Positions 17,208 to 36,289 of a DNA stretch of 38,547 bases are shown piece by piece (the stretch's first letter is position 1; every line of letters begins with the position of its first letter). The DNA is from Acidobacteriota bacterium (GTDB lineage: Bacteria > Acidobacteriota > Terriglobia > 2-12-FULL-54-10). The position numbers were made by a program, and so were the translations under genes. The notes under the pieces were generated by a model. It was given only the letters and a program-made list of their open reading frames with translations. It did not search any database and was not told the DNA's origin. The stretch covers positions 1 to 38,547 of the forward strand of contig SHUM01000033.1 of assembly GCA_009691245.1 (NCBI GenBank), written 5' to 3'.

Positions 17208-19146
<1,939 letters not shown>

Positions 19147-23445: not shown

Positions 23446-23451
23446 TATAAT
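23446..23451 (+). promoter_or_regulatory. Consensus -10 box giving a probable leaderless transcript
   Basis: A perfect TATAAT ends 8 bases before the ATG at 23460. Transcription would start at or next to the ATG, and no ribosome site is present. No clear -35 box. Confidence 0.5.
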
Positions 23452-23459
23452 AGCCTGCC

Positions 23460-25106
23460 ATGCACTCTCCAAAGGACACCGCCAAATCCAAAGCGAAAGC
23501 ACTCCTCTTACCACCAAACTCGCCTGAGCAGCTCGACTTGTTGCGCGATCACATTGAACTTTTTCTCACTGAGCATCCCCGCCTGTTGCTCTCCGAGCCG
23601 GGGCGCGAGGTGATGGACCTATCCGAAACCAGTTACTCACTCTCCACCGAATTCGGCAAATTGACCTGGCACCTATGGAACGAGCGCAGCAATCTGGTGC
23701 GACAGATTACTTCGATTGCGCGTGAGCGGCCCGGACGCCTGGAGCTGAAATGCCAGCGCTTCGGCAAAGGTCCCGCCGGCACGCTGATCCTGGCCGACAC
23801 GCGAGCGGACGCCGAAAGCCTGGAGCGCCGCGGACGCCGCGTGGAATTTGCGCGCCACCTCAAACGTTGGCTGGCTCAATTGTTTCCGGATGCCCGCATC
23901 GACGAACTCACCACCGAGACCAGCATGAAGGACTCGCTCTCCGGCTGCTACGCGCGCGGCGTGTTGAACGATGGGGGCCGCCTGTGGGCCGTGATGGGAG
24001 TGGGCGAGGAGGAATCCCCCGCCGTCGTGGACGGCATTCTCACTTACGGATTACTCTGGCTCGATCATCTGCGCCGCCAGCAAACATCGCGTGTTGTGGC
24101 CGGGCTGAAGCTGTTCCTCCCGCGCGGACAGAGCGAGTTCAAAAATGAAGGCAGGAGTGAAACCACGCGTCAGCGCATGCCCTGGCTGAATAGCGCCGCC
24201 GCCCTGTGGGAGCTCTACGAAACGGGGCCGGAGGTAATTAGGCTGGATATCTCCGACGCGGGGAATTTCCGGACTTCGCTGCACCGCCCTCAGCAGAGCG
24301 GAGAACTGCGTGCCGGAAAACTACTCTCGGAAGATGTGCCTCTCGCACGCCGCATGGAACAACTCAGCGACCGTATTGTCTGTCGCATGGGAAGTGATGG
24401 CTCGCGCCGCTGGTCGATCCACGGACTGGTAATTGCGCGCGAAAGAGCGAACGATTCAGGCTCGCGAATTTTTTTTGGGCTGGGTCGCGCAGAGACCGGG
24501 CTAACTGAACAATCCTTCGAGAGGCTGCGGCGGCTCGCGCAGCAGGTGCTCGATCATCGCATGGCGCCCGTTTCAAAGGAGCCAGACTCTGTGGCAGAGC
24601 CGCTCGATCGGCAGCATCCACTTTTTCGCCTTTGCCCCGAGCTTTGGATGGAAGACGTACTCGTGAATCATGCCGAGTCCATTGTTCCCGACCTGCTTGG
24701 CAATCAGCTTGCCCGGCAAGTGTTTAGCGTGTCGGGATACGAAACTGGATTTGCCGACCTGCTGGGCGTCGCACGTGGCGGGCGACTGGCGATAATCGAG
24801 TTGAAGGCTTCGGAGGACATCCATCTGCCGCTGCAAGGGTTGGACTATTGGATGCGCGTTCACTGGCACATGCAGCGCGGCGACTTCGCGCGCCACGGCT
24901 TTTTTCCCGGCGGCGAGCTAAGCGCCGAGCCGCCGCGCCTGCTGCTGGTCAGCCCCGGCCTGCAGTTCCACCCAACGTGCCAGACCGTGCTCCACTATTT
25001 TTCACAAAAAATCGATGTGGAAATGATCGGCGTTAATGAGGCGTGGCGCGTCCGCCCGCAAGTAGTCTTCCGCAAGCATCGCGATGACTTCCGCCGGAGT
25101 GAATAG
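23460..25106 (+). CDS. Uncharacterised 548-residue protein with a PD-(D/E)XK nuclease-like C-terminus
   Basis: I do not recognise the family of the whole protein. Residues 1-60 are helical. A middle region (about 90-350) has mixed structure, including ADTRADAESLERRGRRVEFA and a WAVMGVGEEESPAVVDGIL stretch. The C-terminal segment GYETGFADLLGVARGGRLAI then IELKAS gives Asp433, Glu447 and Lys449, the D...ExK pattern of PD-(D/E)XK nucleases, followed by a helix (LQGLDYWMRVHWHM) like the one after that motif in many such enzymes. No helicase, methylase or other partner is next to it. The next gene is the broken MFS gene 7 bp on, with close spacing that suggests co-transcription. A nuclease role is an inference from the motif alone. 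Confidence 0.8.
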   Translation: MHSPKDTAKSKAKALLLPPNSPEQLDLLRDHIELFLTEHPRLLLSEPGREVMDLSETSYSLSTEFGKLTWHLWNERSNLVRQITSIARERPGRLELKCQRFGKGPAGTLILADTRADAESLERRGRRVEFARHLKRWLAQLFPDARIDELTTETSMKDSLSGCYARGVLNDGGRLWAVMGVGEEESPAVVDGILTYGLLWLDHLRRQQTSRVVAGLKLFLPRGQSEFKNEGRSETTRQRMPWLNSAAALWELYETGPEVIRLDISDAGNFRTSLHRPQQSGELRAGKLLSEDVPLARRMEQLSDRIVCRMGSDGSRRWSIHGLVIARERANDSGSRIFFGLGRAETGLTEQSFERLRRLAQQVLDHRMAPVSKEPDSVAEPLDRQHPLFRLCPELWMEDVLVNHAESIVPDLLGNQLARQVFSVSGYETGFADLLGVARGGRLAIIELKASEDIHLPLQGLDYWMRVHWHMQRGDFARHGFFPGGELSAEPPRLLLVSPGLQFHPTCQTVLHYFSQKIDVEMIGVNEAWRVRPQVVFRKHRDDFRRSE

Positions 25107-25113
25107 GAAATCC

Positions 25114-26376
25114 ATGGCGGAACTCGCCCCAGAAACCGCGCCCGCCTCGCCCTCATTGTGGCGGCACCGCGATTACCGCAGGTTTTGGATTGCGGGCACC
25201 ATCTCCGGTGCGGGAGATCAGTTCACCAGCCTGGCCATCCCGCTGATTGCCGCTCTCACCTTGCACGCTACGCCTTCACAGATGGGCTACATGGTGGCAT
25301 TGCATGGCGCGCCCTTTCTGCTCTTCAGCTTGTTTGCCGGCGTGTGGGTGGACCGCATGCCGCGCCGCCCTATTCTGATCGCCTGCGACCTGGGCCGCGC
25401 CGCCGTGCTGCTGACCCTGCCGCTGGCCGCCGTCGCGGGAACGATGCGCATGGGGCACTTGTACGCGGTGGAACTGCTGGTTGGGATCATGAATGTGTTT
25501 TTCCAAGTGGCTCATCAGGCCTATCTGCCCTCGCTCATCGACCGGCGCCGCCTGATGGAGGGCAACAGCCGCATGGCCGCCTCCAATTCGGTGGCTAGAC
25601 TCGCCGGCCCCAGCGTGGCTGGATCGGTCATCTAATTTTTCTCCGCCCCCATCGCCATCATAGTGGATGCCATTTCGTTTATTCTTTCCAGCTCATTCAC
25701 CTTTGCCATCCGCCAGCGCGAGCTGCCGCCGCACGCCGCGCCGCGATTGCCGATACTGGCCGAGATTCGTGTGGGCTTTGCCACTGTGTTGGGGAACCCT
25801 GTGTTGCGCTCTCTGGCGGCCTGCATGGGTTCGATCAACTTCGTCGACGCGGGAATGATGGCGCTCTTCATTCTCTTTGCAACGCAGGAACTCGTCCTTG
25901 GGCCCGCGCAGATTGGGCTGATTTTGGGCTGCGGCAGCGCTTCCGGGCTGCTGGGCGCCATCGCCGCGGAGAGGATCGCCAGGCGGTTCGGCGTGGGGCG
26001 CGTAATTGTCTGGGGCGTGGTGATGTATGGCGTCGGAGCAATCCCGGTGGCCTTTGCTCAGCCGGAGACGGCGTTTCCGCTGCTGATCTGCGCCTTCCTG
26101 GTGTTCAGTCTCGCCGGTCCAGTGTTCAGCATCAACCAACTGAGCCTACGTCAGGCAATCACGCCGCATCGCCTCCAGGGCCGCATGAACGCCACCATGC
26201 GGTTTCTGAATACCGGCCCGATGGCCCTGGGGGGACTGGTGGGCGGCTGGCTCGGGGAAGCCATCGGACTTCGCCCCGCCATCATCCTGCTGATCACGGC
26301 GGGTCTGTCAAGTTTTCTCTGGGTGTACTTCTCGCCCGTGCGCAAACTGCAAGCATTCCCGGAACCGGTGGATTAG
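25114..26376 (+). pseudogene. MFS transporter gene (EntS-like) interrupted by an in-frame TAA
   Basis: The frame from ATG 25114 (AGGA 7 bases upstream) encodes the N-terminal half of a major-facilitator exporter: WRHRDYRRFWIAGTISGAGD, the loop motif AGVWVDRMPRRPILIACDLG between helices 2 and 3, and the ARLAGPSVAG segment. TAA at 25633-25635 stops it after 173 codons. The frame then stays open, starting FFSAPIAIIVDAISFILSSS, and runs to 26376 with the second six-helix half. EntS-like proteins often have Gln at the stop position (LIQ..APxAxxVDAxSF), so a CAA-to-TAA change is the simplest cause. As it stands the product would have about five helices and should not transport. The gene follows the 548-residue protein by 7 bp. 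Confidence 0.8.
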
Positions 26377-33574: not shown

Positions 33575-36289
33575 ATGTCCGAGCCCGCCACGCCCCCGTC
33601 CACGCCCCTGATGCGGCAGTACACCGCGATCAAGGCGAAGTTTCCGCAGGCGCTCCTGTTCTTCCGCCTAGGCGACTTTTACGAGATGTTCTTCGAGGAC
33701 GCCGTGCTGGCCGCGCGAGAGTTGCAGATCACTCTGACCTCGCGCAATAAAGAAAAAGGCGAGCCGATTCCCATGTGCGGCGTGCCCTATCACGCCGCCG
33801 ACGGCTACATCGCCAAGCTGATTAAGAAGGGCTACAAAGTCGCCATCTGCGAGCAGATGGAGGCTCCCTCGGCGGGGAAGAAGTTGGTGCTTCGCGAAGT
33901 TACGCGCGTAGTTACGCCGGGGACTGTGCTCGACTCGAACTCACTCGCCCCGCGCGAAAATAATTTCCTGGCCTCCGTCTGCCGTAGTGGCGAGACGATT
34001 GGCCTCGCGTCCGCCGATCTATCCACTGGAGAGTTTCGCGCGACGGAATTTCACGGGCCCAGCGCCGAGGCGCAATGCGTGGATGAACTGAAGCACATCG
34101 GCGCGCGTGAAGTTTTATTTCCTTCCGCGCAAGGGCTGTTGCGCGAGACCGAAGCGCGTCTCGCGTTTGTCGGCGCCGATTCGCAAGGCCTGCGCCTGAT
34201 GCGCACGCCGCTCGAAGATTGGATCTTCGCTTCGGACTACGCCACGCGCCTACTGGCCGGACACCTTCATGTGGCCTCGCTCGATGGTTTCGGACTGGCT
34301 GGCCATGCGCAAGCCATTAACGCCGCCGGGGCGCTGATCCACTATCTCAATGAGACACAGCGCGCCAGTTCGCGCCACATTGACGGCATCTCCTACTACG
34401 AGCGGCAGCAGTGGATGGTACTCGACTCAGTGACTGTGCGCAACCTTGAGTTACTCGAACCGGTGTTCGCCGGAGAAACGGAGGCCACGCTGGTCTCGGT
34501 GATCGACCGCACCGCGACCAACATGGGCGCGCGTTTGCTCAAGGGCTGGGTACTGCGGCCCTCGCTCGATCACGCAGTCATTGAATCGCGGCTAGACGCG
34601 GTGGAGGAGCTGGTCCGTCAGGCCATCCCGCGCGGCAAGGCGGGCAAGTTGCTTGAGTCAGTCTATGATCTGGAGCGCCTGCTCAGCAAGGCCGTGCTCG
34701 GCACCGCCGGGCCTCGCGACCTGCTGGCGTTGCGCAATTCATTTGTACCGCTGCCTACTCTGAAGTCACTTTCGGCTGAGCGTACGTCTGTAAGATGGCA
34801 GTCACTCTCCGCCGCGCTTGATCCGTTGTCCGATGTCCGCGACTTGCTGGCGCGCGCGCTGTCTGATGCGCCGCCTGTGACTCTCGCCGATGGCGGAGTG
34901 ATTCGCGACGGCTACCACGCGGAACTCGATGAGTTGCGCCAATTGAGTCACTCTGGCAAGCAGACTATCGCCCAGATGGAGTCACGCGAGCGCGCGGCCA
35001 CAGGCATTAACTCACTCAAGATTAAGTTCAACGAAGTGTTTGGCTATTACATTGAAGTGTCCAAGGCCAACATGCACCTCGCGCCTGAACGCTATGAGCG
35101 CAGGCAGACACTGGCCGGCGCGGAGCGCTATACCACGCCCGAGCTGAAGGACTACGAGCGCAAGGTGCTGGACGCTGAAGGCAGCATGGCGACCATCGAG
35201 CAGGAACTATTCACGCAGTTGCGTAGCGCGGTCGCTGAGCAGGCCAGCCGCATCCGCCGCACCGCAGCCGCCATCGCCGAGATCGACGTGCTGGTAAACT
35301 TTGCGGGTCTTGCCGCCGAGTACGACTACTGCCGCCCGCAGTTCGCAGAAGCATCGGACACATCTGGTTCCTCAACGGGTGTGCTGGAAATCATGGCGGG
35401 CCGTCACCCAGTGCTGGAGCGGCTGGGGGTGATGCAGCCGGGTGCCATGCTATCGGGAGAAAGATTCGTGCCGAACGATCTGCGCATGGACTCGGACTCG
35501 AACCGCATCCTGCTCATCACCGGGCCGAACATGGGCGGCAAATCCACCTATCTGCGGCAGGTTGCGCTGATCTCCATCATGGCTCAGATGGGCTGCTTCG
35601 TCCCGGCGGCGAGCGCGCGGCTGCCCGTGTTCGACCGCATCTTCACGCGCATCGGCGCCAGCGACAACCTGGCGCGCGGCCGCTCGACGTTCATGGTGGA
35701 GATGACTGAGACCGCCGCCATTCTGAATACCGCTACGCCGGACAGCTTGATCGTACTCGACGAGATCGGCCGCGGCACGGCCACCTTCGACGGCCTCTCC
35801 ATCGCCTGGGCCGTAGTCGAGTATCTGGCTGCTCGCCCCGGCATCAAGGCCCTATTTGCCACTCACTACCACGAACTCACTGAGTTACCCGAGCACTTAC
35901 CCAGCGTGAAGAACCTGCACGTCGCCGTGAAGGAGTCCGGCGGCAACATCGTCTTTCTGCGTCGCGTCGAGCCGGGCCGCGCCGACCGCAGCTACGGCAT
36001 CGAGGTCGCCCGCCTCGCCGGCCTCCCCCGCGAAGTAATCGAGCGCGCCCGCGAAGTCCTCGGCCAGCACGAACAAAGCGAACACCGCCTCAGTGGTATG
36101 TTAAGCCCCGAAGATCATCAGCACGCGGCAGACCGCGACAGCGCCGCGCCCTCCAACATCCAACTCACCCTATTCACCCCCGCCGAGCGCAACGTCGCGG
36201 AGCGTCTCGCGCAAGTCAACGTCGATGAATTGAAGCCCATCGAGGCACTGAACCTGCTGGCGGAATTGAAGAAACAATTGGGCTGGTAA
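33575..36289 (+). CDS. mutS: DNA mismatch repair protein MutS
   Basis: A 904-residue MutS1, which recognises mismatches and starts methyl-directed or related repair. The mismatch-reading Phe-x-Glu is at 35-37 in LGDFYEMF. Walker A is TGPNMGGKSTYLRQ at about 648-661. Then come the signature FTRIGASDNLARGRSTFMVEM, Walker B LIVLDEIGRGTATFDG and ALFATHYHEL. Length is slightly longer than the E. coli form. All key motifs are intact. No ribosome site is visible before the ATG. mutL is not adjacent. Confidence 0.97.
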   Translation: MSEPATPPSTPLMRQYTAIKAKFPQALLFFRLGDFYEMFFEDAVLAARELQITLTSRNKEKGEPIPMCGVPYHAADGYIAKLIKKGYKVAICEQMEAPSAGKKLVLREVTRVVTPGTVLDSNSLAPRENNFLASVCRSGETIGLASADLSTGEFRATEFHGPSAEAQCVDELKHIGAREVLFPSAQGLLRETEARLAFVGADSQGLRLMRTPLEDWIFASDYATRLLAGHLHVASLDGFGLAGHAQAINAAGALIHYLNETQRASSRHIDGISYYERQQWMVLDSVTVRNLELLEPVFAGETEATLVSVIDRTATNMGARLLKGWVLRPSLDHAVIESRLDAVEELVRQAIPRGKAGKLLESVYDLERLLSKAVLGTAGPRDLLALRNSFVPLPTLKSLSAERTSVRWQSLSAALDPLSDVRDLLARALSDAPPVTLADGGVIRDGYHAELDELRQLSHSGKQTIAQMESRERAATGINSLKIKFNEVFGYYIEVSKANMHLAPERYERRQTLAGAERYTTPELKDYERKVLDAEGSMATIEQELFTQLRSAVAEQASRIRRTAAAIAEIDVLVNFAGLAAEYDYCRPQFAEASDTSGSSTGVLEIMAGRHPVLERLGVMQPGAMLSGERFVPNDLRMDSDSNRILLITGPNMGGKSTYLRQVALISIMAQMGCFVPAASARLPVFDRIFTRIGASDNLARGRSTFMVEMTETAAILNTATPDSLIVLDEIGRGTATFDGLSIAWAVVEYLAARPGIKALFATHYHELTELPEHLPSVKNLHVAVKESGGNIVFLRRVEPGRADRSYGIEVARLAGLPREVIERAREVLGQHEQSEHRLSGMLSPEDHQHAADRDSAAPSNIQLTLFTPAERNVAERLAQVNVDELKPIEALNLLAELKKQLGW

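Follow-up and report, generated by a model that had tools for sequence, protein, structure and literature searches.

The locus and its flanking genes

The window, by which we mean the whole stretch of 38,547 nucleotides that was analysed, carries on its forward strand a gene for a 548-residue protein, here called P0001, which is the subject of this report. The initial annotation had given this reading frame as 23460-25106, and it indeed lies exactly there, on the + strand and with an ATG start. The gene and a possible promoter element are as follows.

23460..25106, + strand: gene for the 548-aa protein P0001; complete open reading frame with ATG start, member of a conserved family
23446..23451, + strand: TATAAT, possible -10 box; consensus match only, ending 8 nt before the ATG

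The TATAAT is identical in a genome of the same genus (G001), and the stretch from it to the ATG (window 23446-23462) is without an obvious ribosome-binding site. To judge from the sequence, a TATAAT so near the ATG could possibly give rise to a leaderless transcript. No RNA feature was found near the gene in Rfam.

The stop codon of the gene ends at 25106 and the ATG of an MFS transporter gene lies at 25114, which agrees with the 7-bp gap described before. The transporter gene (25114-26376, + strand) contains an in-frame TAA at 25633-25635 that divides it into two MFS halves, and it is either a pseudogene or the product of an assembly error. Since the flanks of 80 related loci held only four MFS matches, all far diverged (about 26% identity) and none adjoining the P0001 homologue, the pairing of P0001 with a transporter is uninformative. 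The genomic context in relatives, which the initial annotation had proposed as a check, was examined in these 80 loci and revealed no conserved neighbour, operon or partner gene. The initial annotation had also seen no restriction or CRISPR partner, and a Pfam scan of ten neighbouring open reading frames indeed detected no methyltransferase, no CRISPR gene and no other defence gene. Elsewhere in the window, an ATP synthase alpha/beta-family subunit with a V/A-type C-terminal domain (PF22919) is encoded at 17653-19146 (+ strand), and a full MutS1 gene lies at 33575-36289 (+ strand), about 8.5 kb downstream of the P0001 gene. In the 80 other loci, MutS was not closely linked to the family member.

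The predicted C-terminal nuclease domain

A PD-(D/E)XK-like C-terminus had been proposed on the basis of D433, E447 and K449 and a helix following them. In the AF2 model of P0001, built with 15 homologues (mean pLDDT 83.4), a restriction-endonuclease fold is present around residues 425-470, the region on which this proposal depended; the three residues stand at these positions, and the helix spans residues 456-472. The predicted domain has the alpha-beta-beta-beta-alpha-beta core of the PD-(D/E)XK superfamily, with D ... (D/E)xK in the core strands, and is made up of H393-403, E412-425, E428-438, E443-448, H456-472, E493-499 and E519-525. Its features are:

24627..25079, + strand: NucS-like PD-(D/E)XK nuclease domain, residues 390-540, predicted from the AF2 model, structure matches and profiles
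24639..24641, + strand: E394, equivalent of NucS E127 by alignment and invariance
24756..24758, + strand: D433, equivalent of NucS D160 by alignment and invariance
24798..24806, + strand: E447-L-K449, equivalent of NucS E174-x-K176 by alignment and invariance
24834..24848, + strand: Q459 to Y463, equivalent of NucS Q187 and Y191 by alignment and invariance

Among solved structures, NucS was the best match to residues 393-530 in VIA-align (Z 12.4, rmsd 2.1 A over 107 residues, 21% identity), and EndoMS reached Z 12.1. NucS (2vld) was likewise the best PDB match of a sequence profile of the domain (E 0.0046), and this profile aligns E127, D160, E174, K176, Q187 and Y191 of NucS with E394, D433, E447, K449, Q459 and Y463 of P0001. 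These six NucS residues belong to its active site (PMC7343888). A profile-profile comparison, also suggested in the initial annotation, was run with hhalign and matched the domain to four NucS_C-type proteins from related genomes at 97.2% (E 2.9e-11), while five column-shuffled controls all stayed under 0.5%. The six aligned residues of P0001, and W464 as well, occur without change in all 124 homologues. These homologues span the phylum and most are only 30-40% identical to P0001, so that the D433...E447-x-K449 pattern is not a product of chance. The computational evidence thus supports the prediction that the C-terminal domain is a PD-(D/E)XK nuclease with the fold and the active-site set of NucS.

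A predicted second nuclease-like domain in the N-terminal part

The region in front of the nuclease had been described as long and unknown. This description has to be revised, as residues 118-265 are predicted to form another, catalytically dead nuclease-like domain.

23523..23804, + strand: helix and beta-rich domain, residues 22-115, from models; weak PH-like or lipocalin-like matches (Z 4-6)
23811..24254, + strand: predicted restriction-endonuclease-like domain without catalytic residues (pseudonuclease), residues 118-265, from a model and structure matches
24375..24494, + strand: beta meander with conserved G322, A326 and G340, residues 306-345, from the AF2 model and alignment

Residues 1-290 were modelled alone with 70 sequences (mean pLDDT 88.5). 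The order of elements in this model (H114-141, E146-151, E165-171, E174-180, H193-207, E213-221, H234-242, E249-255) is the alpha-beta-beta-beta-alpha-beta order of PD-(D/E)XK enzymes. In VIA-align the best match to residues 118-265 was the nuclease domain of PaqCI (Z 10.1, over residues 124-264), followed by EndoMS and XisH (both 8.1), NucS and N.BspD6I (both 7.8) and, at lower scores, McrC (7.0), Shedu (6.8) and Can2 (6.6); at least eight different PD-(D/E)XK proteins are among the matches. In PaqCI, the nuclease is the N-terminal domain (PMC10201449). This type IIS restriction enzyme combines an active nuclease with a target-recognition domain, whereas the corresponding domain of P0001 is without catalytic residues. 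Across the 124 homologues, D or E occur at positions 175-181 with a fraction of no more than 0.02 and at 164-169 of no more than 0.01, and at least 98% of the sequences have no acidic residue in the core strands. Judged by the spacing of the motif, the residue that comes closest to D433 is R166, a near-invariant arginine. Given the missing acids and an arginine in the D433-like place, residues 118-265 are not expected to cut in the usual way.

In one close pair of sequences, dN/dS was 0.05 for the nuclease and 0.11-0.12 for the other domains, the pseudonuclease among them (0.12); by this pair, residues 118-265 are under purifying selection. The assignment of these residues as a catalytically dead restriction-endonuclease-like domain is a prediction drawn from structural evidence. 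With hhalign, no profile link was found between the N-terminal and the C-terminal part, nor between the N-terminal domain and NucS. An internal duplication of the nuclease, considered as a candidate at the sequence level, was therefore dropped as not demonstrated. Matches to ribosomal eS30 were set aside as matches to a short basic stretch.

Distribution and novelty of the family

The initial annotation had called the protein novel, which holds at the level of the family: P0001 gave no sequence match in Pfam, NCBIfam or PDB, even at E values up to 1. The curated NucS_C model PF01939 and DUF4263, the domain of Shedu, are included in this negative result at the same threshold. The family is present in 49 of 61 related genomes and in 38 of 41 genera, normally once per genome, and the genome of the window has one copy. 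In a phylum-wide sample, 97 of 297 genomes gave a match, of which about a dozen weak ones are probably other NucS-like proteins. The genome collection holds at least 534 loci of the family, and the best 80 of them carry Acidobacteriota titles, with the exception of one MAG named Rhodanobacteraceae.

In the genus g12, the family was absent from all six sampled genomes (G012, G020, G034, G040, G046, G058). Two genera sister to g12 do carry it, and a lineage loss is possible. As the sampled g12 genomes and two thirds of the wider phylum do without the gene, it is not essential everywhere. Some distant family members (395-466 aa) are without part of the first beta domain, which hints that this domain is an optional module. 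No paper was found in which Shedu is treated together with NucS, and a search of the literature on tandem or inactive nuclease pairs and on an Acidobacteriota core nuclease returned nothing relevant.

Inheritance, mobile elements and MutS

The tree of the P0001 family was compared with that of a single marker, MutS, in 28 genomes. The six GTDB families with several members form clades in both trees, the distances are correlated (Mantel r 0.76, 0 of 999 permutations), and the gene tree of P0001 largely follows that of MutS. Not one family member was found in 72,556 plasmid and 50,697 phage records, and a location of the gene on a mobile element or in a defence island was dropped as a candidate, given that no plasmid or phage matched. 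IMG/VR contained one contig with a family member (L111 1-6503), situated at the very edge of the contig; next to it come a D-aminoacyl-tRNA deacylase-like gene, apparently of the host, and then phage-like genes, as named from their sequences. The contig probably captures the border between a prophage and the DNA of its bacterial host. A viral relative of P0001 at full length was likewise dropped as a candidate, because matches in BFVD were of single-domain size at best, the top one being Gp54 of Bacillus phage G.

MutS was found in 20 of 20 genomes tested, with one copy lying within this window, and NucS_C proteins were found in three of the 20. In the genome of the window (G000), PF01939 gave no match above the cut-off, and the best relative had an E value of 0.013. 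The agreement of the trees, the absence from plasmids and phages, the lack of a conserved neighbour, the presence of MutS and the rarity of NucS_C together favour a chromosomal DNA-maintenance enzyme, and the missing restriction or CRISPR partner is in keeping with inheritance of the housekeeping type. Overall, a genome-maintenance nuclease passed on vertically suits the data better than a defence gene.

Discussion

We propose, with a probability of roughly 0.55, that P0001 belongs to the NucS superfamily and acts as a metal-dependent endonuclease on the cell's own DNA; its role is probably genome maintenance and not defence against phages. NucS and EndoMS (PDB 2vld and 5gke) are enzymes of archaea and Actinobacteria, with which P0001 shares the nuclease fold and the active-site residues of the C-terminal domain. 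Unlike them, it has 548 residues, carries a dead nuclease domain in front and coexists with MutS. The N-terminal domain of NucS is a half-closed beta-barrel that dimerises and binds DNA; the beta-rich domain of P0001 has no match in Pfam, and the alignments with NucS cover the nuclease folds only. A C-terminal sliding-clamp motif of the QLxxLF type was found in none of the 124 tails (patterns of the QxxL and QL[SD]LF kind). P0001 agrees with NucS neither in the curated models nor in clamp motif or size, and we therefore class it in a new family of NucS-like nucleases and not as a NucS.

In the mechanism that we envisage, the DNA would be held by the beta-rich and the dead nuclease domain, which would also position the sole active site, and a single chain would thus do the job of a NucS homodimer with its two copies. 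Its likely action would be the nicking or trimming of abnormal DNA, whether branched, flapped or mismatched, during replication or repair. P0001 is unlikely to replace mismatch repair altogether, since the same genomes carry MutS. More specifically, and as a tentative idea that we hold with less than even confidence, the active NucS-like and the dead nuclease in one chain may work as a built-in heterodimer, hitherto undescribed, which nicks a single strand of abnormal DNA and is near-universal in one class of the Acidobacteriota, alongside MutS mismatch repair.

A rather unlikely alternative is that P0001 acts on foreign DNA as a single-gene anti-phage nuclease, in the manner of Shedu or of the PADLOC candidate PDC-S11, with the N-terminal part serving as a sensor. 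Shedu (SduA) has the same layout of a long N-terminal part and a C-terminal PD-(D/E)XK nuclease, and it matches the C-terminal domain at Z 8.0 with a Foldseek probability of 1.00. In contrast to Shedu, P0001 is chromosomal and vertically inherited, and the family is near-universal in its class, largely vertical in descent and absent from the plasmids and phages searched, which speaks against a defence gene. The PDC-S11 models match weakly (E down to 2.6e-7), and the likeness is confined to about 30-95 residues around the motif, no model matching P0001 at full length. PDC-S11-type proteins of the same phylum (e.g. L165, L166) share the D...ExK...QALDY motif and align at 96% in hhalign, but they measure about 360-410 aa, have a different C-terminal part and carry the nuclease at the N-terminus, as does PDC-S11 itself, a protein of ~360 aa. 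Defence genes are also missing from the ten scanned neighbours, and no neighbour is conserved. Three Acidobacteriota proteins of about 370-410 aa (L165, L166, L167) combine an N-terminal NucS-like nuclease with an uncharacterised C-terminal part; two of them have the QALDY motif, and all three look like relatives of PDC-S11.

It is improbable that P0001 is a signal-gated nuclease, in which the front would bind a small ligand, as the CARF domain does in Can2 and Card1, and activate the C-terminal nuclease, possibly against DNA or RNA. Card1 was the top whole-chain Foldseek match (E 2e-4), but the rmsd of this alignment is 20 A. The C-terminal nucleases of Can2, Card1 and VC1899, together with the stretch preceding them, match residues 269-538 (Z 7-9), and R127, R166, R239 and W200 are conserved in the N-terminal domain. 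The order of secondary structure in this domain and its VIA-align matches are nuclease-like, no evidence of a Rossmann-like, ligand-binding CARF domain was seen, and CRISPR genes are absent from the ten neighbours scanned. Least probable is that residues 118-265 form an alpha/beta domain of a generic kind, like nucleases only through a common arrangement, so that P0001 would be a NucS-like nuclease preceded by an unrelated part: Z 7-8 is a typical top score for models without a clear match, sequence profiles give no support and central domains of acetyl-CoA carboxylase are also among the matches, yet the top entries (PaqCI, EndoMS, XisH, NucS and N.BspD6I) come from different PD-(D/E)XK families and align over nearly the whole domain, and the boundaries of the NucS and EndoMS matches agree with those of the C-terminal domain.

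The hidden dead nuclease makes the find somewhat more interesting than first described. The Acidobacteriota are among the commonest bacteria of soil, and P0001 represents a conserved nuclease of this phylum that lies outside every curated family. If the genome-maintenance role proposed here is one in DNA repair, a NucS-like activity would be added to bacteria that also have MutS. The combination of an active and a dead nuclease in one chain would be a natural design for a nickase.
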